In this document: in pieces, positions 25,029 through 36,932 of the stretch
Layout: every line of letters begins with the position of its first letter
How positions within the stretch are numbered: the first letter of the stretch is position 1
Assembly: GCA_041154365.1 (NCBI GenBank)
Contig: AP035449.1
Coordinates: forward strand, 2,724,510 to 2,788,509
Source of the DNA: Candidatus Neomarinimicrobiota bacterium
GTDB lineage: Bacteria > Fidelibacterota > Fidelibacteria > Fidelibacterales > Fidelibacteraceae
Direction: 5' to 3'
DNA: 64,000 bases
The notes under the pieces: generated by a model
What the model was told of the DNA's origin: nothing
Seen by the model: only the letters and a program-made list of their open reading frames with translations
The model's database searches: none
Program-made: the position numbers and the translations under genes

Positions 25029-25289
25029 ATGGCGGGGATCTTTAAAGCCCTGGGTGATCCCGGCCGTCTTCAGATTGTCCGGCTTCTTCGGACTGGCGAA
25101 TTGTGTGCAGGCGAAATCGCCCAAATCCTTCATACAGATCAATCCACATTGAGTCACCAGTTAAAGATTTTAAAATTTCACGGCATCGTTCTCTCCCGCA
25201 AAGACGGGAAATATCATCGTTATTCCCTGGACAATGCGTGTGTCCGGGAATTGCTGGATTTGATGGACCAACATCTTGTCAATTGTTAA
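25029..25289 (+). CDS. ArsR-family transcriptional regulator
   Basis: This 86-residue winged-helix protein has the family signature FKALGDPGRLQIVRLLRTGELCAGEIAQIL, then the recognition helix TDQSTLSHQLKILKFHGIV and the wing RKDGKYHRYSL. ArsR regulators repress until a metal, sulfide or redox signal binds. The alpha-3 metal motif ELCxC is reduced to a single Cys (ELCAG), so a classical arsenic site is absent; a second Cys is the last residue. The ATG at 25029 has no ribosome binding site. The frame is open upstream and reads as a normal ArsR N-terminus back to an ATC at 24990, which sits 6 bases behind AAGGAG. It heads the plus-strand operon and is the likely repressor of it. Confidence 0.85.
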   Translation: MAGIFKALGDPGRLQIVRLLRTGELCAGEIAQILHTDQSTLSHQLKILKFHGIVLSRKDGKYHRYSLDNACVRELLDLMDQHLVNC

Positions 25290-25301
25290 GATGAGGAATG
25301 C

Positions 25302-25793
25302 ATGAAACACGGTATACTATCTGGAGTGCTGCTATTTGGGGTCTGGCTTCTTTTAAATAATTCACTGTCCGGTGAAATCCTTCTTTCCGGATTGGTTCTC
25401 TCAATTTTCCTTGCGCTTTGGAGTTCAAAATTTTTTCCGGTTTTTAAGCATGTCTCTCTGTCTGCGAAGTCCTTTTGGGCTTTCCTGTGTTTTACCGGTG
25501 TTTTCCTGAAAGAGCTTTTTCGGGCCAATGTGGATGTAGCGGTCCGGGTCCTTTCCCCTTCTCTGCCCATCAAACCGGGAATTGTTGCCGTAAAAACCCG
25601 CCTAAAAGATCCGCTGGCCCGGTTGATGCTGGCAAATGCCATCACATTGACTCCCGGCACCTTTACGCTGGATATCCGGGACGACATCCTGTACATCCAT
25701 TGGATTGATGCAGGAAACGTCCACAATCATGCCGAAACGGATGCGATCGTAAAAAAATTTGAAAAACACCTGGAGGTTCTCTTTGGCCGATAA
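25302..25793 (+). CDS. mrpE: Mrp antiporter subunit E-like (MbxA)
   Basis: This 163-residue membrane protein matches MnhE/MrpE: two hydrophobic segments near the N-terminus (about 5-40), a third at 60-80 (SFWAFLCFTGVFLKELFRANVDVA), then a soluble domain with PGIVAVKTRLKDPLARLMLANAITLTPGTFTLD. In Mrp, Mbh and Mbx complexes this subunit is part of the Na+/H+ antiporter module. A GAGG site precedes the ATG. It is the first structural gene of the membrane complex, 12 bp after the regulator. Confidence 0.9.
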   Translation: MKHGILSGVLLFGVWLLLNNSLSGEILLSGLVLSIFLALWSSKFFPVFKHVSLSAKSFWAFLCFTGVFLKELFRANVDVAVRVLSPSLPIKPGIVAVKTRLKDPLARLMLANAITLTPGTFTLDIRDDILYIHWIDAGNVHNHAETDAIVKKFEKHLEVLFGR

Positions 25794-26043
25794 AATTCTT
25801 ATTGCCGCCGGAGTTCTGATACTCATCTCCCTAATTTTAACCCTGTATCGCTTTTTCAAGGGGCCGGGATTCGTGAACCGGGCCGTGGCAATTGATGTTC
25901 TGGGTATTATCGTCATCTCCCTTATCGGCCTGGCAGCCATTCTCTTTGAACAGGCCCTGTATCTGGATGTCGCCCTGGTTTACGGACTCCTTTCATTCTT
26001 GGGTATAATTGTCATCGGCCGATTTATTGAGAAAGGATTGTAA
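25783..26043 (+). CDS. mrpF: Mrp antiporter subunit F-like (MbxB)
   Basis: The 86-residue product has three membrane helices and the MrpF motif YRFFKGPGFVNRAVAIDVLG followed by AILFEQALYLDVALVYGLLSFLG. The start chosen is TTG at 25783, 6 bases behind TGGAGG; an in-frame TTG at 25759 has no such site. It overlaps the end of mrpE by 11 bp and joins mrpG through TAATG. It is part of the ion-translocating module. Confidence 0.88.
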   Translation: MADKILIAAGVLILISLILTLYRFFKGPGFVNRAVAIDVLGIIVISLIGLAAILFEQALYLDVALVYGLLSFLGIIVIGRFIEKGL

Positions 26044-26387
26044 TGCAGTATCTTGAAGTTATCGGTGCCATCTTTGTCCTTTTGGGCTCTTTTTTCCTGC
26101 TGACAGCTTCCATCGGCCTTTTGCGCATGCCGGATGTGTTTAATCGCATTCAGGCCGGAACCAAGGCCTCTACACTGGGAACCCTCCTCGTTTTATTGGG
26201 GATCGGCTTTACCCATCCCGGATGGTGGGGCCGTTTGCTGATTATCGCTGTTTTCATTCTCATCACCGTTCCCGTTTCCAACCATATCATCGCCCGGGCA
26301 GCCTATCATCATAGCCAGGAAAAAGGCCGTTTCTTCCGTGATGATCTGGGCTCGCCAGCCGAAAAAGCAAAGGAGGAAACACCATGA
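26043..26387 (+). CDS. mrpG: Mrp antiporter subunit G-like (MbxC)
   Basis: This 114-residue protein has three membrane segments and the MrpG/MnhG pattern FFLLTASIGLLRMPDVFNRIQAGTKASTLG, then a charged C-terminal tail. It belongs to the Na+/H+ antiporter module. It is coupled on both sides: one-base overlap with mrpF and ATGA overlap with the next gene. Confidence 0.9.
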   Translation: MQYLEVIGAIFVLLGSFFLLTASIGLLRMPDVFNRIQAGTKASTLGTLLVLLGIGFTHPGWWGRLLIIAVFILITVPVSNHIIARAAYHHSQEKGRFFRDDLGSPAEKAKEETP

Positions 26388-26632
26388 TCACGGCTTTCTC
26401 CCTGATTCTTTCCCTTATTATTCTCGCAGCAGCCCTGGCTGCTATACGCTTTAAATCTTTGCCGTCAGCCATTATTGCCACAGGTGCCGTGAGCCTTTTT
26501 TCAAGTGTTCTCTATATCCTTCTGGCGGCTCCTGATGTGGCTATGACGGAAGCGGCCATCAGCAGCGGTCTCATGACGGCCCTCTTTTTTATGGTTCTTG
26601 GCAAGACTCGCAAGGAGGATAAACATGGTTAG
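26384..26632 (+). CDS. MbhD/DUF4040-like antiporter subunit (MbxD)
   Basis: This 82-residue protein with three hydrophobic segments matches the DUF4040/MbhD family, which equals a C-terminal piece of MrpA. The signature AAPDVAMTEAAISSGLMTALFFMVLG is clear. In Mbh/Mbx-type complexes this piece is a separate gene, as here, rather than part of MrpA. It overlaps the next gene by 8 bp. Confidence 0.88.
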   Translation: MITAFSLILSLIILAAALAAIRFKSLPSAIIATGAVSLFSSVLYILLAAPDVAMTEAAISSGLMTALFFMVLGKTRKEDKHG

Positions 26633-27311
26633 AAAATTTCTCGTTTTCCTCCTCGTAGTTGCCCTGGGTTTTGTTTTCTTTACTCTTATAAGTGATTATA
26701 CCATGCCGGAAACTCTGGGAGCCACAGCCCGGTATTACGGTGAAAATGGACTTGCCGAAACCGGTGCCCTGAACCTGGTTACTGCGGTCCTGGTAACCTA
26801 CCGGGGGCTGGATACACTGGGTGAAGTCACCGTCCTGTTCCTTGTGGCATCTATCTTCGGCTTTTATCTGAAACAGGAAAATTCACGGCGTCCCTCACCT
26901 GCAAGTCCGCTCCTGTACACAGCCTCCGGAATGATTCTCCCCCTTATCCTCCTGACGGGCATCTATATTATTGTTAACGGTCACCTTTCTCCCGGCGGGG
27001 GCTTTCAGGGCGGGGCCTTTCTGGCATCGGCCTTTCTCCTGGCACTTCTGGCCGGAACAGGCCGTTCTGTATTCATTCGGTTTTTTTCTGTTATAGAATC
27101 TTCTTCCGGTTTTCTCTATGTCCTTTTAGGGCTCGCCGGTCTCTTTTTTGCCGGAGGATTTTTGGATTCACGGCTTCTCCCCGGCGGATTCCCGGGAAGG
27201 CTGATCTCCGCAGGAACCATCCCCCTGGTTTCTATCCTGATCGGCCTGAAGGTAGGCACCGAACTTTCCTCTATGCTGATTAAAATCACACACAGTGAAG
27301 GGGAGGCATAA
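26625..27311 (+). CDS. MbhE-MrpB fused antiporter subunit (MbxF-like)
   Basis: The 228-residue protein joins two family pieces. Residues 1-90 match MbhE/MrpA C-terminal (TGALNLVTAVLVTYRGLDTLGEVTVLFLVA). Residues 100-228 match MnhB/MrpB (LLTGIYIIVNGHLSPGGGFQGGAFLASAFLLAL). About six membrane helices are expected. The start at 26625 follows AAGGAGG directly and is preferred to an earlier in-frame start within mbxD. In archaeal Mbh these are two genes (mbhE, mbhF), so the joined form is notable but known in Mrp-related clusters. Confidence 0.85.
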   Translation: MVRKFLVFLLVVALGFVFFTLISDYTMPETLGATARYYGENGLAETGALNLVTAVLVTYRGLDTLGEVTVLFLVASIFGFYLKQENSRRPSPASPLLYTASGMILPLILLTGIYIIVNGHLSPGGGFQGGAFLASAFLLALLAGTGRSVFIRFFSVIESSSGFLYVLLGLAGLFFAGGFLDSRLLPGGFPGRLISAGTIPLVSILIGLKVGTELSSMLIKITHSEGEA

Positions 27312-27314
27312 AGA

Positions 27315-27665
27315 ATGACCATCACGCTCACAACCGGATCTCTTTTGATCCTTTTAGGACTTTACGCGTTGCTGACACAGGATAACCTGCTGCGCATCAT
27401 TATTGGTTTTTCCCTGGCCAATACAGGGGTTCACCTGATCATCGTTTCCCTTGGATATCTGAAAAACCGTACCGCTCCCATATTAAACGACGCCATGATT
27501 GCGGCCGGCCCCGAAACACAGATCGTGGATCCCCTGCCCCAGGCGCTGGTCCTTACCGCCATCGTCATCGGGTTTGCCATCACAGCTTTCCTCCTGGCGT
27601 TTGCTTTGCGCATCTACCACACATACGGAACCCTGTCACTCAGTAATCTGGTGGATAAATCATGA
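27315..27665 (+). CDS. mrpC: MrpC/NuoK-like subunit (MbxG)
   Basis: This 116-residue protein has three membrane helices of the MrpC/NuoK family: GLYALLTQDNLLRIIIGFSLANTGVHLIIVSLG, then a cytoplasmic loop, then DPLPQALVLTAIVIGFAITAFLLAFALRIY. The family keeps a Glu/Asp pair for proton transfer; the DPLPQALVLTAIVIG motif is intact. It overlaps the following antiporter gene by 4 bp. Confidence 0.92.
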   Translation: MTITLTTGSLLILLGLYALLTQDNLLRIIIGFSLANTGVHLIIVSLGYLKNRTAPILNDAMIAAGPETQIVDPLPQALVLTAIVIGFAITAFLLAFALRIYHTYGTLSLSNLVDKS

Positions 27666-30600
27666 CACAACCCATTCTTTATATTGCCTTGCCCCTCCTA
27701 GCCGCTTTTTTTGCCGGTTTAACCGGAAAACGGTATGGGAAAATTCCGGCGACGGTGATGATTCTTGCCCTTGCCGGAACGTTTCTGCTTTCGGCATACT
27801 ACGTGTCTGCCTTCCTGCTCGGTATAAGGCAGCCTTTTACGGCATCAACAGCAGGAAGCCTGCCCCCTTTTTCCATTGCTTTCCGGATGGATCTTCCCGA
27901 AGCCCTGACCCTGCTGATAATAAACTGCCTGGGGTTGTTGGGACTTTCCGCCATGAAAACGACCTTCCGTCAAAAGGGTACCCTGAGTGCCGTGACCTAT
28001 CTTCTCTATTTCATGGCCCTCAACGGAATCATTCTTACCCGGGACCTGTTCAACTATTTTGTGTTTATTGAAATCAGTTCCGTTGCCCTTGCCGGCATGG
28101 TTTTGTTTAAGGGATCCGGGCGCTGCCTGAGGGCCGGTTTTTCCTGGATGATGGCAACCGGTGTGATTTCCATCTTCCTTATTCTTTCGGCAATCCTGAT
28201 ATATATCCGCACCGGTGCTCTGGATGTTGACAGTATTCTGTATTCAGACCCCCTTGTTTTATTTTCCGGAAGCGCCGGTGCTTTTTTTCTTTTTCTGGCC
28301 CTTGTTTTTGAACTGAAACCATTTCCTGCCAATGGCTGGGCGTTAGATGTGTATGAAAATGCCTCACCGGCAGTCTCCGCCGTTTTCTCCGGCGCCGGAA
28401 TGACCGCCGGACTGTTTGCCCTGTACAAATTTCTCCCTGTGATTGGCGACAGGTGGCTTTTCCCCCTAACCATCATTGGTCTGATGACCTTTGTCTTTTC
28501 CAATGTCCTGGCACTAAAACAATCTGCCGTAAATCGGATGCTCGGGTATTCTTCCGTAGGGCAGGCCGGGCTGATTGCTTCCGTTTTCGGAATGGGTGTT
28601 TTGTCCCAACAGGAGATGTTTTTCATTGCCGCTTCCCTCATGGCTGTCCATGCGCTGGCCAAGGCCGGACTCTTCTGGCTGAGCCACCATACCGGCTTTA
28701 CATCGGTTCATGAATGGGCTGATATTCGACAAAAACCATTGTTTGTTTTTCTTCTGGGATTTTACGTCTTTGCCCTACTGGGATTACCCCCTTTTCCATC
28801 GTTTTTTGCCAAATGGTCCCTGATCACGGCACTGGCTTCCGGCCCCCAAGGGTGGATGATGGCTGCAATTCTCCTGGGCTCTCTCCTGGAGGCCGCCTGG
28901 ATGGTCCGATGGTTTGGATATGCGGTGAAGGGAGAAGGCCAAACCAAGGCAGAAATCCAAAAAATTCCTCCGGCTTATAGCATGATACCTGCTCTTCTTT
29001 TACTGGGATTGATCCCTCTTTTAAATATGTCCCGTTTTGCATTTCTCCTGACCCACAACCGGATTCCACTCCTTTTTATTGCCGGTTTTTTTCTGTTGGA
29101 TTTTATACCGGCACGTGTAAAAAACACGTTCATGATTGGCGGATTGGGGCTCTGTTTTTACTCTTTATATCCCACGTTAACTGAGTTCCGCCTGATTTTC
29201 GCCATCGTTTTTCTGGTCGGCGGAATGATTCTTCTTCTGGCAGGTTATCATCATAAAGGACGCCGAGCCGGTTTTTACCCTTCATCTGCCCTGATGTATT
29301 CAGGCCTTGCCGGCTTGTTGACGGCCGGGACAACCCTGGAATTTTTCTTCTGGTGGGAATTGATGACTCTGGGAAGCTACTTTCTGATTCTCCGGGGTAA
29401 AAAATCCCTTTCCCATGCCCTGTCTTACTTCCTTTTTTCCATGGGCGGAGCCTATGCCATGCTTTCAGGCTTCGGACTCCTGGCTGCAGCAAATCAAGGG
29501 TCACTTGCCCTGGAAACCCTTTCGTCCGGAGGCCCCTTTCAGTCTGTCATCTTTATCCTCCTTGCCCTTGGTTTTCTGACTAAAACCGCTGCCGTTCCCC
29601 TGCATATCTGGCTTCCGGGCGCCCACAGCGAGGCAGAAAGTGATGTGTCCCCTGTGGTGTCTGCCGTTCTTCTGAAAGCCGGTGTGTTTGGATTAATCCT
29701 CCTCATGTCCGGGATGGGCCCCCAATCTCTTGGAGGCGTGAATCTCTATGCTGCATTGGGGTGGCTGGGGGCCATAACAGCTCTGATCGGAAACCTGAGT
29801 GCCATTTTTGAAGAAGATGCGAAGCGGCTTCTGGCCTATTCAAGTGTGGGTCAACTGGGGTATGTGCTTTTTGCTTTGGCCATGATGAATCACCTGGGAT
29901 GGTTAACGGCCACGGTTTTCGCCCTGAACCATTTCCTTTTCAAAGCCCTGCTCTTTCTGGCTATCGGCGGTGTGGTAATGCGGGTCAAAACCCGGAACAT
30001 GTACGAAATGGGCGGACTCATTAAAAAAATGCCTGTAAGCTTCATCTCCGTGATGATCGGGATCATCGCCCTTTCCGGTGTTCCCCCTTTAACCGGCTTT
30101 GCCGGAAAATGGCTTAGTTACAATGCCACGGTTCTCAGTGGATGGTATCTTCAGGGGGTCATCATCAGCTTTGCCGGCCTGGTGGCATTCCTCTATTGTT
30201 TCCGCCTAATCTATGCCATCTTCCTGGGGCAGCTGAAAGATCATCACCGTCAGGTGAAAGAGGCACCTTTCTGGATGATGGTGCCCCAGATTATCCTCAT
30301 GGGTATCATCCTCTTTTTAAGTACGGTACCCAATGTTGCCCTGAAACCGGTGGGTGCTTTTCTTACGCGATATTTTCCTGAACATGCCCTCGTCTGGGAC
30401 GGCCCCCTGGCCCGAAGCCTCTATGGCTACTGGAATGGATATATGATCATGCTGGTGACCGGTGTCGTTTTTGCCGTGGTTTTTTTCTGGCTTTTCTTCA
30501 TTAACCGGAAAGCCGTGAAAATAAAGCAGTTCAACATTGTCTACGCCGCCGAACGGCCATCCCGCCCTGAACTGACTCACTTTGCCTACAACTTTTTTGC

Positions 30601-30793
30601 GCCTTACCGGAAAGCTCTGGGATTTCTGGTGGCACCTGTCGGCATGGATTTTTGGAATCGTCTGTCCGAAGGTACCCATGCCACGGCAGGTTTTATCGCC
30701 CGGCTTTTCAGCGGAAATGGCCAAAGTTATGTAATTCACCAGATCCTCTTTGCCGTTTTGGTCTTTTTTCTTGTCCTGGGAGGAATACAATGA
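27662..30793 (+). CDS. Fused double MrpD/NuoN-type antiporter subunit (MbxH-MbxH')
   Basis: At 1043 residues this is twice the usual length. It holds two proton_antiporter_M domains in tandem, about 1-470 and 490-930, then a C-terminal soluble/membrane tail. Copy 1 has the TM5 Glu at 137 (YFVFIEISS) and the TM7 Lys at 219 (FELKPFPANGWALDVYENASP), but its TM8 Lys position is Gly244 (SAVFSGAGM). Copy 2 is complete: Glu at about 565 (FFWWELMTLGS), Lys in TKTAAVPLHIWLPGAHSEA and Lys at about 671 (SAVLLKAGVFG), plus NHFLFKALLFLA. Archaeal Mbx has two separate genes (H and H') here. Fusion fixes a 1:1 ratio. Stop and next start overlap (ATGA). No frame break is seen between the copies. Confidence 0.9.
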   Translation: MTQPILYIALPLLAAFFAGLTGKRYGKIPATVMILALAGTFLLSAYYVSAFLLGIRQPFTASTAGSLPPFSIAFRMDLPEALTLLIINCLGLLGLSAMKTTFRQKGTLSAVTYLLYFMALNGIILTRDLFNYFVFIEISSVALAGMVLFKGSGRCLRAGFSWMMATGVISIFLILSAILIYIRTGALDVDSILYSDPLVLFSGSAGAFFLFLALVFELKPFPANGWALDVYENASPAVSAVFSGAGMTAGLFALYKFLPVIGDRWLFPLTIIGLMTFVFSNVLALKQSAVNRMLGYSSVGQAGLIASVFGMGVLSQQEMFFIAASLMAVHALAKAGLFWLSHHTGFTSVHEWADIRQKPLFVFLLGFYVFALLGLPPFPSFFAKWSLITALASGPQGWMMAAILLGSLLEAAWMVRWFGYAVKGEGQTKAEIQKIPPAYSMIPALLLLGLIPLLNMSRFAFLLTHNRIPLLFIAGFFLLDFIPARVKNTFMIGGLGLCFYSLYPTLTEFRLIFAIVFLVGGMILLLAGYHHKGRRAGFYPSSALMYSGLAGLLTAGTTLEFFFWWELMTLGSYFLILRGKKSLSHALSYFLFSMGGAYAMLSGFGLLAAANQGSLALETLSSGGPFQSVIFILLALGFLTKTAAVPLHIWLPGAHSEAESDVSPVVSAVLLKAGVFGLILLMSGMGPQSLGGVNLYAALGWLGAITALIGNLSAIFEEDAKRLLAYSSVGQLGYVLFALAMMNHLGWLTATVFALNHFLFKALLFLAIGGVVMRVKTRNMYEMGGLIKKMPVSFISVMIGIIALSGVPPLTGFAGKWLSYNATVLSGWYLQGVIISFAGLVAFLYCFRLIYAIFLGQLKDHHRQVKEAPFWMMVPQIILMGIILFLSTVPNVALKPVGAFLTRYFPEHALVWDGPLARSLYGYWNGYMIMLVTGVVFAVVFFWLFFINRKAVKIKQFNIVYAAERPSRPELTHFAYNFFAPYRKALGFLVAPVGMDFWNRLSEGTHATAGFIARLFSGNGQSYVIHQILFAVLVFFLVLGGIQ

Positions 30794-31695
30794 CATTTCA
30801 CTGGATGCAGATCGTATATGCCCTGGTTTCTCTATTCATCGTATTGAATGTGGGATTGGTGATTCAGGGTATCGTCCGCAAGATCGGAGCCCGTCTGGGA
30901 CGTCGCTACGGGATCCGCTGGTATCAGCCCTATCTGGATCTTTTCAAGAATTATGCCATGCGGTCCACCGTATCCCACGGAATCATGTTTTATCTGGGGC
31001 CGGTTTTCAGGCTTTCGGGAGGTATTGGACTCTTTCTCTTTATGCCCGTGATTTACGGATCTGCCTGGTTTCAGAATTTTTCAGGATCGGGTGATTTAAT
31101 CCTTTTGGCTTATTTCATTTTCTTTGGGACTCTTGGGATGGCCCTGGGAGCCGGAGAAGGCGGTCATCCCTATTCCGCCATCGGGATCACCCGGGGGCTT
31201 TCCCAAATGACAGCTGCTGAAGTCCCCCTTATTCTGGCGATTATCGCCATTGCCGTACAGTACCAGACCCTGTCGGTGACAGATATTGTGGCAGCACAGC
31301 AGGGTAGCATTCTGAACTGGACACTCTTTACCAATCCCCTGGCAACAGTTGCCGCCATGCTGGGATTTCTGGGTTCCATGATGCGTTCCCCCTTTGATGT
31401 GGTTCTGGCGCCCCAGGAAATCCCCATTGGTCCTCCGACAGAATTTCATTCCAATTTCCTGGCCGTCCTCCAGACAAACCGGGCAATCTTCCCGATGGCC
31501 AAAACCATCCTCTATGTGAATCTGTTTTTTGGCGGTGCCACAAACTGGCCGGTGCTTATTGTGAAAGTTTTTCTGCTCTATATGTGGCCTGTCTTTATCG
31601 GTGTGGCTTTCCCACGCTTTCGTGTGGATCAGTCCATACGTTGGTTTCTTCGGATTCCCGCCCTGATTGGAATTCTTGCAATCCTTTTTATATGA
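30790..31695 (+). CDS. NuoH/HyfC-type membrane subunit (MbxM)
   Basis: This 301-residue protein with eight or so membrane helices is the complex I NuoH-like anchor: RYGIRWYQPYLDLFKNYAMRS, GAGEGGHPYSAIGITRGLSQMTAAEVPLILAI, MRSPFDVVLAPQEIPIGPPTEFHS. In complex I this subunit forms the quinone tunnel and the E-channel; its charged loops (AEVP, EIPIGPPTEF) are kept. The ATG at 30790 overlaps the stop of the antiporter gene, so the longer frame is rejected. It connects the antiporter arm to the peripheral arm. Confidence 0.93.
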   Translation: MTFHWMQIVYALVSLFIVLNVGLVIQGIVRKIGARLGRRYGIRWYQPYLDLFKNYAMRSTVSHGIMFYLGPVFRLSGGIGLFLFMPVIYGSAWFQNFSGSGDLILLAYFIFFGTLGMALGAGEGGHPYSAIGITRGLSQMTAAEVPLILAIIAIAVQYQTLSVTDIVAAQQGSILNWTLFTNPLATVAAMLGFLGSMMRSPFDVVLAPQEIPIGPPTEFHSNFLAVLQTNRAIFPMAKTILYVNLFFGGATNWPVLIVKVFLLYMWPVFIGVAFPRFRVDQSIRWFLRIPALIGILAILFI

Positions 31696-31702
31696 GGCAA
31701 TT

Positions 31703-32344
31703 ATGTCCAATGATGACTTGAAAAAACGCCGTGTAAAAGGTCCTGACGGAATTGAATTTGAAGTGAATCCCATGGAGGATTACTTCTGCACGGAACGTCC
31801 CCATCCCGAATCACCGGCAAATCGTATCCTGGAAAAATTTTTCAACTGGGCCCGGTCTGAATCCGTGTGGATCCTGGGATATGGAACCGGTTGCGGCGCC
31901 ATTGAAATGCGTCCCCTCATGACACCCCGATTTGACGCATACCGTTTTGGCATCCAGTGGCGGCCGACACCCCGGCAATCCAATTTACTCATGGTCTCCG
32001 GATATCTCTCCGTCAAAACCCTCAAACGGGTGATTCGAAGTTATGAGCAAATGCAAAACCCGAAATTCGTGATGGCCCTGGGCAGCTGTACGATCAACGG
32101 CGGCATGTATTGGGACAGCTACAACACCATCAACCGTCTGGATCATTACCTGCCGGTGGATGTATACGTCGCCGGTTGTATGCCCCGACCCGAGTCTATT
32201 TTGGCCGGACTCGAGGAACTGAAAAAACGCATTCGCGCCGGAAAGGGGGAGGGTGCCAACACCTATATCGAAAATTTGGACTGGTATAAAGCCAATCAGA
32301 AAAAAATCATCAAAGACTGGGATATGCCGGACTATAACTGGTAG
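31703..32344 (+). CDS. NuoB/MbxJ-type iron-sulfur subunit
   Basis: This 213-residue protein matches the small subunit that holds the proximal [4Fe-4S] cluster: FDAYRFGIQWRPTPRQSNLLMVSGYLSVKTLKRV, ALGSCTINGGMYWDSYN, PVDVYVAGCMPRPESI. Cluster ligands seen are Cys64, Cys129 and Cys159. Complex I NuoB has a CC pair at the first position; here the motif is GTGCGAIE with one Cys, so the fourth ligand is unclear (Cys29, DYFCTE, is the only other candidate seen upstream). The start at 31703 has a GAGG site. It would pass electrons between the ferredoxin-like domain and the large subunit. Confidence 0.9.
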   Translation: MSNDDLKKRRVKGPDGIEFEVNPMEDYFCTERPHPESPANRILEKFFNWARSESVWILGYGTGCGAIEMRPLMTPRFDAYRFGIQWRPTPRQSNLLMVSGYLSVKTLKRVIRSYEQMQNPKFVMALGSCTINGGMYWDSYNTINRLDHYLPVDVYVAGCMPRPESILAGLEELKKRIRAGKGEGANTYIENLDWYKANQKKIIKDWDMPDYNW

Positions 32345-32352
32345 GAATATTC

Positions 32353-32889
32353 ATGGATTATGTCATTCACGAGCTGAAAACACACTTTTCAGGAAGGACT
32401 TTTGAAAAGAAGCGGGAAGATCTCCTGTTTACCACCCTGGAGACCGGAGTATTGGTTCACGCACTGAAACATCTGCGGGATGTGCTGGGCTTTCGTCATC
32501 TGGTGCTGATCACTGCCGTGGACTGGATTGAGGAAGATCAGTTTCAGCTCACCTATCTTCTGAGGAATCATACCCAAAAGACAGATGTGGGCCTCCGGGT
32601 CTTTATTCCACGGCAAAATCCCGTGATGGAATCGGTTCACACCTTATGGGAAACGGCGGCCACCTATCAGCGGGAATTACACGAAATGTTCGGAATCGAT
32701 TTTCCCGGGAGTCCCAGAGTAAACAAACCCTTTATCCTGGAAGGCTGGCAGGATATTCCTCCTTACCGGAGAGATTTTGACACAAAAAAATATTCGGAAG
32801 AGACCTATTTCCCCAGGCCGGGGCGGAAAACTCACGATCCTGAGACATATATGAAACAGAAACTCTATCCCGATGGAACGGAATCATGA
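32353..32889 (+). CDS. NuoC/MbxK-type 30-kDa subunit
   Basis: This 178-residue soluble protein has the NuoC signature: LITAVDWIEEDQFQLTYLLRNH, NPVMESVHTLWETAATYQRELHEMFGIDFPG and FILEGWQDIPPYRRDFD. It is a structural part of the peripheral arm and binds no cofactor. A Gly/Asp-rich C-terminal tail follows. It overlaps the next gene by 4 bp. Confidence 0.92.
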   Translation: MDYVIHELKTHFSGRTFEKKREDLLFTTLETGVLVHALKHLRDVLGFRHLVLITAVDWIEEDQFQLTYLLRNHTQKTDVGLRVFIPRQNPVMESVHTLWETAATYQRELHEMFGIDFPGSPRVNKPFILEGWQDIPPYRRDFDTKKYSEETYFPRPGRKTHDPETYMKQKLYPDGTES

Positions 32890-34064
32890 AATATTTTGAA
32901 GAAGACAGGAGCAAATTCCCCCCGAAAAATGCTGACGGTTCTTTTCAGATAGACCCGGAAAGTCACAAATTCACCCATATCTGGCAGGGCCCTCAACACC
33001 CTGGAATTACAGGAAATATGTCTCTTGAACTCATCATCCAGGGTGATGAGGTGATGCAGTGTGAAACCCACGTGGGTTACCTGCACCGGGGATTTGAAAA
33101 GCTGATGGAGCGGCGGAAATACATCCAGTGTTTTCCCCTGGTGTGCCGTATTTGCGTTCCCGAGCCCGATTTCAATGAATACTGTTTTGCCGCCGGCGTA
33201 GAAGAGCTGGCCGGTATTCATGTCCCGGAAAAAGCCCTCTGGATTCGCACCCTGGTTTTGGAAATGGCTCGACTGGCCAGTTATCTCATGTGGATGGGCG
33301 GCGCAGCGGGAAGTCTGGGACACGGCCTGCCGGGACAGTGGACCAATTACCTGCGGGATTATATTCTGGATCGGTTTGAAGAACTCACCGGCGGCCGAAT
33401 CTATCACATGTATATTTTGCCTGGCGGGGTTCGGAATGACCTGCCGGAGGGATTTAAACAGCGACTTTTGGATGTATTGGATGATATAGAACGGGTTATG
33501 AAAGATGTAAAAACCGTCATGTTCAACAATGCCGTTTTCAAAAAACGAACCCAGGGACTCGGCGTCATAGATCCCTCGTGGATCGAACCTTATGGCATTA
33601 CCGGTCCCAATGCCAGGGCAGCAGGAATCCCCCTGGATGTCCGGAAGGATTCCCCCTACCTGAAATATCCGGAGCTGGATTTTGAACCGGTCGTCGGGAT
33701 AGAATCCGATGCCTATACACGCCTGGATGTCCGGCGGCGGGATTTGCTTGTCACCGTGGATCTGATCCGCCAGATTCTGAATAAAATGCCGGAAAACGGA
33801 GAATATATGGCGCCTTTGCCCAATGTGCTGAACTGGGAAATCCCCCGGGGAGAAACCTATGTCCGGGCAGAATGTACCCGGGGTGAATACGGGTATTACA
33901 TGGTTTCTGACGGTTCCATGTATCCCCGGCGGGTCAATGTGCGGGGACCCTCGTACACCCATGCCGTGGCACTCATGGAAAAACTGGTCGTCGGCGTGAA
34001 TATTGCCGATGTGGCGGCCCTGATGACCTCTCTACATACCTATCCACCTGAAATTGAGCGGTAA
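32886..34064 (+). CDS. NuoD/MbxL-type large subunit without NiFe ligands
   Basis: The 392-residue protein is a homolog of complex I NuoD and the [NiFe]-hydrogenase large subunit: GPQHPGITGNMSLEL, VGYLHRGFEKLMERR, GVEELAGIHVPEKALWIRTLVLEMARLASYLMWMGG. In hydrogenases an N-terminal RxCGxC and a C-terminal DPCxxC bind nickel-iron. Here the N-terminal motif is VCRICVPEP (Cys87, Cys90), a CxxC shifted by three residues, and the C-terminal one is ADVAALMTSLH with no Cys. The complex I quinone motif HPSTHG reads HPGITG. So neither H2 nor a normal quinone site is expected, as in archaeal Mbx/Mbs, which act on polysulfide. The acceptor here is not known. Confidence 0.9.
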   Translation: MKYFEEDRSKFPPKNADGSFQIDPESHKFTHIWQGPQHPGITGNMSLELIIQGDEVMQCETHVGYLHRGFEKLMERRKYIQCFPLVCRICVPEPDFNEYCFAAGVEELAGIHVPEKALWIRTLVLEMARLASYLMWMGGAAGSLGHGLPGQWTNYLRDYILDRFEELTGGRIYHMYILPGGVRNDLPEGFKQRLLDVLDDIERVMKDVKTVMFNNAVFKKRTQGLGVIDPSWIEPYGITGPNARAAGIPLDVRKDSPYLKYPELDFEPVVGIESDAYTRLDVRRRDLLVTVDLIRQILNKMPENGEYMAPLPNVLNWEIPRGETYVRAECTRGEYGYYMVSDGSMYPRRVNVRGPSYTHAVALMEKLVVGVNIADVAALMTSLHTYPPEIER

Positions 34065-34066
34065 CC

Positions 34067-35857
34067 ATGAAAATCAGCGATATACTTCAGCCTTTAACGG
34101 CCTGGAAAAATCTGGTAAAAGACCCCATCACAATTAAGGTTCCCCTGAACCGGGATGGAGCTCCGCGCTACCGGGGCTTCCACAAAAATGATCTGGATAC
34201 CTGTATTGGATGCGGCACCTGTGAAGCCATTTGTCAGAATGCCGCCATCGACATGGTTCCGGTAGAGGGCGTTGAGACAAAAGACGGTGACAGCGGCCTG
34301 CGCCCGCGTATTGACTACGGACGCTGCTGCTGGTGTGGCCTCTGTGTTGATATCTGCACGACGGGATCGTTGACCATGTCCAATGCCTATCAATGGATTG
34401 ACAATGATCCGGAAGTTTTCCGGTTTATTCCCGGTGCAGAGGAAAAACCCTGGGATACGGCCGACAAGGGATACAAGCGGCCGGAAAACTATACCCTGAA
34501 CCCGTTGGACCGGGTCTCCATGGAAGAGCTCAACCCGGCAGACCGAATCCAGGGCTTTATGGAAATTGTAAAGGGATACAGCCATGAGCAGGCACTGCGG
34601 GAAGCTGACCGGTGTGTTTCCTGTGGGATCTGCGTTGCTACCTGCCCGGCACACATGGGTATTCCCGCTTATATTGAGGCAATTCGAAACGATGATTTGA
34701 ACCGGGCTATACGTATTCTCTATGAGACCAATCCGCTTCCGGAAGTCTGTGGCCGGGTGTGTACCCATAAATGCGAAACCGTCTGTTCCATTTCCCACCG
34801 GGGGGATCCTGTATCCATCCGGTGGTTGAAACGCTATATTGCCGATCAGATTCCTGAACATAAATATGCTTCCCTGCTGGATTCTCCACAGGAAGAGACC
34901 GGAAAAAAGATAGCCATTATCGGTGCCGGTCCGGCCGGTCTTTCTGCCGCTTACTATCTCCGCCTTCAGGGACATGCCGTTGTGATTTTTGAAGCTCAGC
35001 CCGAGGCCGGCGGGATGATGAGATATGGAATTCCTGAATATCGCCTTCCCTATGACCAGCTGGATAAAGACATTGAACACATAAAACACCTCGGCGTGAA
35101 AATCAGGACCGAAACACGTGTTGGGCGGGATATATCACTGAAATCCCTCCATGAAGAATTTGACATTGTCTATGCGGCAACAGGGCTTCATGAAGGCCGG
35201 AGCACCCGGGCTCAGGGAGCTGATCATCCCCAAGTATATCAGGCGGTGAATCTGCTCCGGGATTTTACCAAAGGACTAAAAATCCCGTATGAAGCGCCGG
35301 TGGTCGTCATCGGAGGCGGAAATGTCGCCATGGATATCGCCCGAACGCTTGCGCGCCTGCACATGCAAAAGATGGGCCGGGTGAACATCACCCTCACCTG
35401 CCTGGAAACAGAGGATATAATGCCGGCGGACCGGGAAGAAATCGTAGAAGCCCGGGAAGAAGGGATTCAAATCATTCCCGGCTACGGCCCCCTGGAAGTT
35501 GTCAGCGAAGGCGATACCCTGAAGGGCTTGAAAACCGTTCGGTGTGTTTCGGTTTTTGACGAACATGGCCGCTTCAATCCAAAATTTGACCCCTCAGATA
35601 CCCGATTTTTACCAGCATCCATTGTCGTTGAAGCCATCGGGCAGGGCATGGACCTCTCATACATACCCGAATCATTCAAAAAAGAGATAAAAACCGATGC
35701 ACGGGGACGGATTCAGGTGGATGCGTATTATCAAACATCCCTGCCCTGGTTTTTTGCAGGTGGTGACATCATAGAGGGGCCGGATGTGATTCACGCCATT
35801 GCCAACGGTCACACGGCGGCAAAACGTATAGACCATATTTTACGAGGTGAACTATGA
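34067..35857 (+). CDS. Ferredoxin-GltD/NfnL-type flavoprotein fusion (MbxN-like + NAD(P)H module)
   Basis: The 596-residue protein has two parts. Residues 1-120 are a NuoI/MbxN-like ferredoxin with two [4Fe-4S] motifs: Cys46-49-52 + Cys56 and Cys90-93-97 with Cys87. Residues 155-596 match the GltD / NfnL / glutamate synthase small chain family: a Cys-rich segment (Cys183, 186, 189, 193 and Cys228, 232, 236, 240), the FAD motif AIIGAGPAGLSAAYYL (about 283-298), GGMMRYGIPEYRLP, the NAD(P)-binding IGGGNVAMDIARTL and GGDIIEGPDVIHAIANG. No glutamate synthase large subunit is present. The fusion would let the membrane complex take electrons from, or give them to, NAD(P)H. It is soluble, on the cytoplasmic face. 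Coupled to the rubrerythrin-like gene (4 bp). Confidence 0.9.
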   Translation: MKISDILQPLTAWKNLVKDPITIKVPLNRDGAPRYRGFHKNDLDTCIGCGTCEAICQNAAIDMVPVEGVETKDGDSGLRPRIDYGRCCWCGLCVDICTTGSLTMSNAYQWIDNDPEVFRFIPGAEEKPWDTADKGYKRPENYTLNPLDRVSMEELNPADRIQGFMEIVKGYSHEQALREADRCVSCGICVATCPAHMGIPAYIEAIRNDDLNRAIRILYETNPLPEVCGRVCTHKCETVCSISHRGDPVSIRWLKRYIADQIPEHKYASLLDSPQEETGKKIAIIGAGPAGLSAAYYLRLQGHAVVIFEAQPEAGGMMRYGIPEYRLPYDQLDKDIEHIKHLGVKIRTETRVGRDISLKSLHEEFDIVYAATGLHEGRSTRAQGADHPQVYQAVNLLRDFTKGLKIPYEAPVVVIGGGNVAMDIARTLARLHMQKMGRVNITLTCLETEDIMPADREEIVEAREEGIQIIPGYGPLEVVSEGDTLKGLKTVRCVSVFDEHGRFNPKFDPSDTRFLPASIVVEAIGQGMDLSYIPESFKKEIKTDARGRIQVDAYYQTSLPWFFAGGDIIEGPDVIHAIANGHTAAKRIDHILRGEL

Positions 35858-36333
35858 CACATTTAACTGTACGGGATATTCTTGAACACGCGGAACGCAT
35901 TGAAACTGAAAGTCATGTGTTTTATGTCAGGGCTGCCGGTTTTCTCAATGATCCGGACGCGCGCCAACTGGCCATTGAGCTTTCAGAAGAAGAAACCAAA
36001 CACTTCAATCATCTGCGGGATTTATTAAACCAGACCCATTTGTCCTCCCACGAACTGGATAAAACACTGGGATCAGAGGTTAACCTCTCTGACCGGGTTG
36101 TTAAAACATCGGATATCAACGAAGAATCGGATGCAGATACGATTTTAAACGTTGCCCTGGAGCGTGAGAAACAAACCGAAGCCCTATATCGTTTATATCT
36201 TACTCTAACCGGCATCCCCGATCACCTTGTCCGGGTTTTTGAAGACCTTCGGCAACAGGAGGTCGGACATCAGAAGCGTATACTGAAAATGATCGAAAAA
36301 CGAAAAAGAAACACAAACGGGAAGGAATCATAA
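35854..36333 (+). CDS. Rubrerythrin-like ferritin-fold protein
   Basis: This 159-residue protein is a four-helix diiron candidate without a rubredoxin domain. Metal ligands are likely Glu in ERIETESH, EEETKHFNHL, ALEREKQTEALY and EDLRQQEVGHQKRI (E...ExxH twice). Such proteins reduce hydrogen peroxide or bind iron in anaerobes. The gap helix carries an acidic middle insertion (DINEESDAD). It is coupled to the flavoprotein gene (4-bp overlap) and to the peroxiredoxin gene (TAATG), so it is made with the membrane complex. It may guard its iron-sulfur clusters or take its electrons. Confidence 0.75.
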   Translation: MTHLTVRDILEHAERIETESHVFYVRAAGFLNDPDARQLAIELSEEETKHFNHLRDLLNQTHLSSHELDKTLGSEVNLSDRVVKTSDINEESDADTILNVALEREKQTEALYRLYLTLTGIPDHLVRVFEDLRQQEVGHQKRILKMIEKRKRNTNGKES

Positions 36334-36932
36334 TGACTGTTCTCGTATCCCGTGAAGCGCCTGATTTCACGGCACCGGCCGTCATGCCGGACAATACGAT
36401 CAATCCATCATTTCGTTTATCGGATTATAAAGGAAAACCGATCGTTCTTTTTTTCTGGCCCCTGGATTTCAGCTTTGTGTGTCCAACGGAAATCATTGCC
36501 CATGACCGGCGTCTGGATGCTTTCGACAAACGGGGTATCCGGGTGATTGGCGTGTCTGTAGACTCACAATATACCCATCTGGCCTGGAAGAATACTCCCC
36601 GGACAAAGGGGGGGATTGGGCCGGTACGTTTTCCCATTGTCGCAGATGTCAATCATGAAATCACCCAAAAATACGGCATTGAACATCCGGACGGTGTGGC
36701 ACTCAGGGCCTCTTTTCTCATCGACCCGGATGGGATTGTGCAATCACAAATCATCAATAACCTGAATCTTGGCCGGAATGTTGATGAAATCTTGCGCGTG
36801 GCCGACGCCCTGGCCTATACCCGGGAAACAGGCAGGGTGTGTCCTGCCGGCTGGGAATCGGGAAAATCTGCCCTGGAAGCCAGTGCCGAAGGCGTTGAAA
36901 GTTATCTCAGCGAATTTTCTGAAGATTTGTAA
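36333..36932 (+). CDS. Peroxiredoxin (2-Cys, AhpC/Prx1 type)
   Basis: This 199-residue protein has the peroxidatic Cys50 in DFSFVCPTE, the conserved Arg region, and a resolving Cys170 in GRVCPAGW, so it is a typical 2-Cys AhpC/Prx1 enzyme that reduces hydrogen and organic peroxides. The start ATG follows GGAAGGAATCATA. It is the last gene of the operon and converges with the next minus-strand gene, overlapping it by 31 bp at the 3' ends. No ahpF or thioredoxin gene lies nearby. Confidence 0.93.
   Translation: MTVLVSREAPDFTAPAVMPDNTINPSFRLSDYKGKPIVLFFWPLDFSFVCPTEIIAHDRRLDAFDKRGIRVIGVSVDSQYTHLAWKNTPRTKGGIGPVRFPIVADVNHEITQKYGIEHPDGVALRASFLIDPDGIVQSQIINNLNLGRNVDEILRVADALAYTRETGRVCPAGWESGKSALEASAEGVESYLSEFSEDL

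Follow-up and report, generated by a model that had tools for sequence, protein, structure and literature searches.

Which kind of ion-pumping complex is encoded by the run of 12 genes at positions 25302-35857 of the window, and with what would it exchange electrons? The window is the whole stretch of 64,000 nucleotides that we analyzed, positions 2,724,510 to 2,788,509 of contig AP035449.1 (assembly GCA_041154365.1) of a Candidatus Neomarinimicrobiota bacterium; it lies at the end of this contig, which is a single-contig genome of 2,788,509 bases, and has a G+C content of 43.5-50.0% in blocks of 8 kb. The available portion of a published description (PMC11652737) presents Fidelibacter multiformis IA91 as an obligate anaerobe living on muropeptides, with 2.79 Mbp and 45.6% G+C. 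Our comparisons support a complex of the MBS/MBX type, in which the pump subunits H and H' form one protein and the subunit N is fused to a flavoprotein of the GltD/NfnL type. Judged by its relatives, this doubly fused form is a widespread variant of a known machine, not unique to the window genome, and many of its hosts are sulfur oxidizers.

The 12 genes are all on the + strand, have open frames, and are almost contiguous. A preliminary description, made from the letters of the window, had claimed a gene order of the Mbx/Mbs type, and Pfam recovered all 12 genes in that order: MrpE, MrpF, MrpG, MbhD, MbhE+MrpB, MrpC/NuoK, H-H', NuoH, NuoB, NuoC, NuoD, and NuoI-GltD. The Mrp-type arm A-G, the paired H/H', and M-J-K-L-N are all present. 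In the list below, the Mbs letters of the small subunits were assigned by analogy. Five proteins (L, J, H-H', N-GltD, and E+B) were compared with the PDB, and the other seven were placed by Pfam only. The start of the M gene was corrected to the ATG at 30790, and the E+B gene probably starts at the ATG at 26625.

25302..25793, + strand, MrpE-like subunit (MbsA), PF01899, 3.1e-40
25759..26043, + strand, MrpF-like subunit (MbsB), PF04066, 1.1e-14
26043..26387, + strand, MrpG-like subunit (MbsC), PF03334, 5.1e-26
26384..26632, + strand, MbhD-like subunit (MbsD), PF13244, 8.1e-19
26625..27311, + strand, fused MbhE+MrpB subunit (MbsE), PF20501 and PF04039 (MnhB)
27315..27665, + strand, MrpC/NuoK-like subunit (MbsG), PF00420, 1.7e-23
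27662..30793, + strand, H-H' fusion of 1043 amino acids with two antiporter-type pump units, double Proton_antipo_M, 6U8Y chains X and H
30790..31695, + strand, NuoH-like membrane anchor (MbsM), PF00146, 1.1e-41
31703..32344, + strand, NuoB-like subunit with a predicted three-Cys proximal cluster (MbsJ), 6U8Y_J, 215 bits
32353..32889, + strand, NuoC-like subunit (MbsK), PF00329, 1e-27
32886..34064, + strand, NuoD-like subunit without NiFe or quinone site (MbsL), 6U8Y_L, 334 bits, and tree
34067..35857, + strand, NuoI/MbsN-GltD fusion of 596 amino acids, 4Fe-4S, Fer4_20 and Pyr_redox_2 domains, PRK13984

The class of the complex was assessed with the PDB scores and a tree of the L subunit. The window L scores 334 bits with the L chain of the Pyrococcus furiosus MBS (6U8Y_L), 217 with Thermus Nqo4, and 144 with MbhL, and J scores 215 bits with 6U8Y_J, at most 139 with complex I-type chains, and 98 with MBH. 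The E+B protein matches 6U8Y chain E nearly over its full length (148 bits, 2.8e-42; next best 55), and the N part matches MbsN over residues 5-133 with 86 bits (complex I NuoI chains at most 44). H-H' scores 199 bits with 6U8Y_X (H'), 154 with 6CFW_H, and 147 with 6U8Y_H; its H' half is clearly MBS-like, and for the H half, in a comparison that gives the halves no separate scores, 6U8Y_H is the best placed over residues 5-313. In a maximum likelihood tree of 63 L-type proteins (midpoint root, for drawing only), the window, 28 bacterial L from operons with N-GltD, and MbsL form one clade (100/100), and the 20 rows on the side of complex I (99/97) and the 13 on the side of hydrogenases (100/100) stand apart. 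Hence, the phylogeny places L with MbsL, as the Mbx/MBS assignment of the preliminary description had it, and the PDB scores agree. The window genome has a single 49-kDa-type locus (PF00346) and nowhere matches PF00374 (NiFe hydrogenase); by these models, then, both an ordinary complex I and a NiFe hydrogenase are missing from it. Together, these results support the assignment of the operon to the MBS/MBX type, not to complex I nor to the hydrogenases.

The P. furiosus MBS (membrane-bound sulfane reductase, 6U8Y; earlier MBX) shares the subunit set, the E+B fusion, and the paired H/H' with the window complex. The fused E+B, listed in the gene order of the preliminary description, is present, but it is not special, since the two are already one chain in the archaeal complex (6U8Y chain E). 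The two fusions that the preliminary description stressed distinguish the window from P. furiosus, where H and H' are not on one chain and MbsN has only 208 amino acids. In the 1043-residue protein, residues 5-313 align with 6U8Y chain H and residues 464-1038 with chain X, with an H half at about 1-450 and an H' half at about 459-1043, and an AlphaFold2 model of it (pLDDT 80.6, pTM 0.83) has 6U8Y_X as best fold match. The 596-residue protein matches MbsN over residues 5-133 and NfnL over 148-593. As the separate N, H, and H' chains of P. furiosus are absent here and both sets are fused, the complex is best regarded as a variant of MBS/MBX. This agrees with the caution of the preliminary description that the system may be a variant rather than new; an MBX linked to an NADPH dehydrogenase had already been proposed in 2010 for Thermosphaera (PMC3035292).

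To what extent are these fusions peculiar to the window? A scan of named genomes with an L alignment as query gave at least 586 stretches and 575 relatives, of which the best 80 were taken as named loci (L026-L105). The resulting spread is a lower bound, and the 80 loci are biased towards close relatives of the window. According to record titles, the hosts belong to at least five phyla (Pseudomonadota, Bacteroidota, Spirochaetota, Neomarinimicrobiota, and Cloacimonadota), with further unclassified bacteria and one Deltaproteobacterium. Strain records among the matches include Prolixibacter bellariivorans, Thiohalocapsa marina, Magnetovibrio blakemorei, and Rhodobium orientis. N-GltD is fused in 79 of the 80 loci: 69 hold the whole gene, and in 10 it runs into the end of the contig. 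All 53 loci with a complete H-H' gene encode it as one chain; in 12 others the contig ends within the gene, and 15 have no match, 14 of them starting inside or after the operon. Assembly errors are excluded by the recurrence of both fusions in independent genomes. The preliminary description had held the pair to be distinctive, and in this it does not stand: the pair is general in a large bacterial clade, and N-GltD has its own NCBIfam model and occurs in Thermotoga maritima. The window protein scores 886 bits with this model, PRK13984, over residues 3-594, below the curated cut-off of 946; among 14 control genomes, the cut-off was passed in one, that of T. maritima. Within the phylum of the window, N-GltD was found at E <= 1e-150 in 14 of 245 genomes, a threshold that misses truncated copies, e.g., that of G013.

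Two of the named loci depart from this layout. In L079 (4680-6547), found in one metagenome-assembled genome (MAG), N-GltD lies in two overlapping frames, probably because of a sequencing frameshift. L068, the one locus whose lack of H-H' is not explained by a contig end, has J-K-L-N-GltD and neither M nor H-H' in the 5.6 kb before L; it may be a rearranged or chimeric MAG contig, or a split operon.

The N-GltD fusion seems to be older than the H-H' fusion, since MbsN is unfused and three loci (L023, L019, and L149), in which N-GltD is fused but H and H' are separate, fall in the L tree outside the group with fused H-H'. Two of these, L019 and L149 (genomes G050 and G225), are second MBX-type operons: their J motif is CTGCG, with both cysteines as in the archaeal MBS, and the same genomes also hold an N-GltD of the window type.

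The residues of the catalytic chamber inform on the other end of the complex. According to the accessible part of the structural work on MBS (PMC7684303), the proximal cluster is held by MbsJ C28, C93, and C123 only, polysulfide is proposed to be cleaved at this open cluster, and activity survives mutation of MbsJ C25 or of MbsL C85/C385. In the alignment, the window J keeps the equivalents of C28, C93, and C123 and carries a Gly in place of C25. The 80 named loci gave 74 J matches; none of the 71 that cover the motif has Cys at C25, and the ligands are Cys in 71/71 (C28), 73/73 (C93), and 74/74 (C123). By sequence, the predicted proximal [4Fe-4S] cluster of J has three Cys ligands only. The tandem CC of NuoB is CG in the window J. 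In L, the motif RICVPEPD is identical to that of MbsL, the Nqo4 quinone residues H38 and Y87 are replaced by T42 and V91, and Cys is found at only one of the four NiFe positions (C90, which is not conserved among relatives); L has RICVPEPD and YPPEIER where MbhL has MCGICS and DPCLSCTDR. The window thus shares with the P. furiosus MBS the three-Cys cluster, the L motif, and the lack of a complete NiFe or quinone site, but it lacks MbsJ C25 and MbsL C385. In H-H', the pump residues E137, K219, H330, K384, and E566, K641, K672, H757 are kept in 32 of 32 rows, K256 in 31, and position 816 is Lys or Arg.

Two candidates were rejected with these data. A true complex I disagrees with the PDB scores, the L tree, the quinone residues, and the missing NuoB tandem CC, and a NiFe hydrogenase with the PDB scores, the tree, the NiFe cysteines, and the lack of PF00374. 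The homologous core is in common with complex I, and GltD would take the part of NuoEFG. However, the window L is in a separate clade, the quinone residues and the CC tandem are gone, and no NuoEFG was found among the operon proteins with Pfam, the rest of the genome not having been searched for them.

The flavoprotein is where electrons would be exchanged with a soluble carrier. The N part has two [4Fe-4S] clusters, and the C-terminal 450 residues share with NfnL/GltD two [4Fe-4S] clusters, the FAD domain, and the NAD(P)-binding domain. The best PDB matches of this GltD part are Nfn/Stn proteins, and the AlphaFold2 model of the whole chain (pLDDT 88.8, pTM 0.85) has as best fold match 5JCA_L, the P. 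furiosus NfnL, solved with NADP(H). The preliminary description had proposed direct exchange with NAD(P)H, a plausible idea given that conservation extends to the motifs for FAD and dinucleotide binding and to every one of the 16 cysteines of the four clusters (43/43 rows for the cysteines). The domain differs from NfnL in being fused to N, in Glu447, in an extra Cys228, and in the absence of an NfnS-like partner among the operon proteins (Pfam). Where the second strand of the dinucleotide domain ends, five solved NfnL-type relatives have Tyr-Arg-Arg and the window family has Leu/Met-Glu. This Glu447 is found in 42 of 43 alignment rows, the exception being L023 with Tyr-Arg-Arg, and in 73 of 73 matches in the named loci, a set that overlaps the 43 rows. 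In Rossmann folds, a Glu at this place usually goes with NADH rather than NADPH; since it replaces the Arg pair, Glu447 suggests a preference for NADH. For this family the rule is not proven, since two of the five solved relatives belong to complexes determined with NAD, which is probably bound elsewhere. Position 228 is Cys in 43 of 43 rows and Ile, Ile, Leu, Thr, and Thr in the five solved Nfn/Stn relatives. In the bifurcating Nfn/Stn enzymes, the cluster near the FAD has a non-Cys ligand. The eight cluster cysteines resemble those of plain GltD, and the invariant Cys228 is a weak indication that the domain is more like plain GltD than like the bifurcating NfnL.

What could such a complex do? 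We favor, with about even confidence for and against, an MBS-type pump that passes electrons between NAD(H) and/or ferredoxin and a compound with an S-S bond, perhaps reversibly. Electrons would enter or leave at N-GltD, from NADH and/or ferredoxin, and run to the open cluster in J, where the S-S bond of a polysulfide, a persulfide, or another disulfide would be reduced, or formed in the reverse direction, and H/H' and the Mrp part would meanwhile move H+ or Na+. The window organism, probably an anaerobic heterotroph, may use the complex to dispose of electrons and conserve energy. In sulfur oxidizers with a reverse Dsr, it could run backwards, with the ion-motive force pushing electrons from sulfur at the sulfide level to NAD+. 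The window genome also has Rnf (C, D, and A confirmed) and Na+-Nqr (A and F confirmed), at contig positions 1777000-1790000 and 2519000-2532000 (L160 and L161 of genome G000). A second ferredoxin:NAD+ pump would be partly redundant with these, which favors another substrate. In T. maritima, mbxA goes up on addition of S0 or thiosulfate, as stated in the excerpted text of PMC9431562.

The hosts themselves offer a link to sulfur. We searched dsrA and nifH in 46 of the 80 host genomes, chosen for their long contigs. Among the 36 Pseudomonadota, 34 have dsrA (32 over the cut-off and two strong fragments below it), the exceptions being a Rhodobacteraceae MAG (L101) and a Rhodoferax ferrireducens MAG (L104). 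A cautious count is 34 of 37, since L033, which lacks dsrA and whose record title says just 'bacterium', falls among the Pseudomonadota in the tree. nifH was over its cut-off in 17 hosts, all of them Pseudomonadota. We rejected nitrogen fixation as the main link, given nifH in 17/36 and dsrA in 34/36. Hence, an association between the operon and dsrA is present in the sample; it is partly taxonomic and is not seen outside Pseudomonadota. A broader proposal, which we hold as tentative and rather doubtful, is that of a widespread bacterial family of NADH-linked sulfur complexes in which GltD, recruited independently of NuoEFG, would be the NADH end and the three-Cys cluster handling S-S bonds the other; in the reverse-Dsr oxidizers, it would run backwards and, with no quinone in between, deliver sulfur electrons directly to NAD+. 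Complex I, MBH, and MBS are read as steps from a ferredoxin-driven to an NADH-driven pump. If the proposal is true, the MBS-type pump of a large bacterial clade would have taken up an NADH-type input from an unrelated flavoprotein and so reached the NADH-driven form by a second, independent route. Its frequent company with the reverse dissimilatory sulfite reductase would give a testable answer to how some sulfur oxidizers obtain NADH or handle stored sulfur.

Several points weigh against the pump acting on S-S compounds. NADH and polysulfide have similar potentials, which leaves little energy with which NADH by itself could power two pump units in the forward direction. An additional input from ferredoxin, a disulfide that is more oxidizing, or operation in reverse might solve this problem. 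In the L tree, MbsL sits on a long branch inside the clade (92/53), and the program warned of long branches meeting. Activity, substrates, and direction are for this clade predictions from sequence. dsrA is over the cut-off in none of the 10 non-Pseudomonadota hosts, a near relative of the window included; L044 and L026 show weak partial matches, and the window genome was outside this search. In control tests with the N-GltD protein as operon marker, dsrA was found in 6/6 genomes with the marker vs 36/193 without it in the family of a Dechloromonas MAG (199 genomes; one-sided Fisher p 6.6e-5), but four of the six positives had given the idea and the two new ones alone yield p 0.037. A weaker link appears among the 89 genomes of the genus to which the Rhodoferax MAG belongs, with 5/7 vs 22/82 (p 0.025) and, for the new genomes alone, 2/3 (p 0.19). 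Conversely, the marker is carried by only 6 of 42 dsrA holders in the former group and 5 of 27 in the latter. Finally, the consulted section of a 2013 paper (PMC4053972) describes a six-gene Hyf/Mbx-like cluster, also present in non-sulfidic Comamonadaceae, and argues that it is not a sulfur reductase.

The chief alternative is an energy-coupled ferredoxin:NAD(P)+ oxidoreductase, in which both substrates would act at N-GltD and the membrane arm would couple the reaction to ion flow in the manner of Rnf, possibly backwards to provide low-potential ferredoxin for carbon or nitrogen fixation. We consider it unlikely. In MBS, the two clusters of MbsN take electrons from ferredoxin, as far as the available text of PMC7684303 goes; the N part here is joined to an NfnL-like domain, for which the ferredoxin/NADP enzyme NfnI is the closest fold match. 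In older papers, MBX was described as a ferredoxin:NADP+ reductase (PMC3035292, seen in excerpt), and in the Riftia symbiont, the portion at hand of PMC11636981 reports that a putative Mrp-Mbx shares expression neighbours with the ferredoxin-needing reverse tricarboxylic acid cycle and not with the Calvin cycle. Yet, both electron sites would then precede the J-L chamber, the driver of pumping in this superfamily, and the conserved open cluster would have no use; in addition, the Rnf and Nqr of the window genome already serve related reactions, and nifH occurs in fewer than half of the Pseudomonadota hosts searched.

A bifurcating or confurcating complex, in which NADH and reduced ferredoxin would act together at the GltD-type FAD with one branch feeding the pump, appears quite unlikely to us. 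It would ease the small energy gap between NADH and polysulfide, and subunits of bifurcating enzymes (NfnL, NfnABC, and Stn) are the closest matches of the GltD part. Nevertheless, the five solved Nfn/Stn relatives lack the Cys228 invariant in the window family, the eight cluster cysteines resemble plain GltD, and an NfnS-like partner is missing from the operon. Less probable still is an NADH:quinone reductase resembling complex I, with GltD in place of NuoEFG: the core architecture is the same, and sulfur-oxidizing and phototrophic hosts contain quinones, but the quinone head-group residues are gone (T42/V91 for H38/Y87), the NuoB CC has become CG, and L falls outside the clade of complex I. 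That the fusions are assembly artefacts or pseudogene read-through, for which one could cite the split frames of L079 and the incomplete L068, is a negligible prospect, in practice refuted by their recurrence in independent genomes, with H-H' fused in 53/53 whole genes, N-GltD fused and whole in 69/80 loci from many assemblies, open frames, and conserved motifs.

The S-S-linked pump that we prefer would not be the first bacterial MBX. T. maritima is likewise bacterial, and its genome encodes an N-GltD fusion over the PRK13984 cut-off, which we take to lie inside the mbx operon TM1205-TM1217. Its MBX is described as having 13 subunits in the available part of PMC9431562. Two further systems can be likened by description only, not by sequence. 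The MBX operon of Thermosphaera aggregans comes with a SudA/GltD-like gene, from which its authors, in the passages at hand, read an MBX linked to an NADPH dehydrogenase (PMC3035292); it differs in being archaeal and in keeping the SudA-like gene separate. The Riftia symbiont Endoriftia, a sulfur oxidizer with rDSR genes (reverse dissimilatory sulfite reductase), has the putative Mrp-Mbx mentioned above, and the excerpted article lists MBX among complexes of unknown function or direction (PMC11636981). Hence, bacterial MBX, N-GltD as the PRK13984 model, the idea of an NADPH-linked MBX (PMC3035292), and Mrp-Mbx in a sulfur-oxidizing symbiont are already known. In a search of mostly open-access literature, with texts covered in part, we found neither fusion named, and no report of the spread of the doubly fused form, the non-archaeal three-Cys signature, the NADH-type site, the association with dsrA, or the ferritin-like companion described below.

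Three neighbouring genes flank the operon:

25029..25289, + strand, ArsR-family regulator, Pfam HTH_5, ending 12 bases before the first pump gene
35854..36333, + strand, ferritin-like (rubrerythrin family) diiron protein, PF02915, 6.4e-9
36333..36932, + strand, AhpC-type peroxiredoxin, PF00578, 9.2e-37

The preliminary description closed the set with N-GltD. Its 12 genes hold, but the set continues into the ferritin-like gene, a further difference from the P. furiosus MBS. Of the 80 loci, among which many are truncated, 44 hold a relative of this gene, across phyla; it follows N-GltD in 41 loci, 36 of them judged by distance and five more by coordinates, often overlapping its end, and precedes the first pump gene in 3. 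The diiron ligands E17, E47, H50, E105, E136, and H139 are kept in 43-45 of 45 proteins. One may speculate that this partner shields the open cluster from peroxide or oxygen. The peroxiredoxin has a relative near the operon in only 2 of 80 loci, and its membership in the operon is uncertain. In eight Bacteroidota loci (L028, L029, L031, L038, L040, L047, L061, and L093), a DHO_dh-like gene follows N-GltD instead, and five of these loci, as well as L030, have ahead of the operon, on the other strand, a regulator of the CRP type that in most cases bears clustered cysteines in its N-terminal part, both labels being based on Pfam for one member each. SurR, the sulfur regulator of the P. furiosus mbs, is also ArsR-like. 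Among the fetched loci, however, only the window and its closest relative (L015/L026, the same contig) have the ArsR gene immediately ahead of the operon. A conserved upstream regulator was rejected for this reason, and the gene is probably local. Among the other neighbour clusters, members of c0, c4, c5, c8, c9, and c10 were sent to Pfam, and c1-c3 were dropped because they look like antisense frames of GC-rich genomes.

Other loci with L-like proteins were also observed. Seven Neomarinimicrobiota loci (L136, L137, L138, L139, L141, L146, and L151) carry a different Mrp-linked operon with the J motif SPCNNC, separate H-type chains, and a separate N-like protein of 200 amino acids, and their L groups with the hydrogenases in the tree. 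In L142 (8256-9326) and L153 (2971-4098), we found very divergent L-like proteins of 356-375 amino acids, with no Mrp genes in the fetched stretches.

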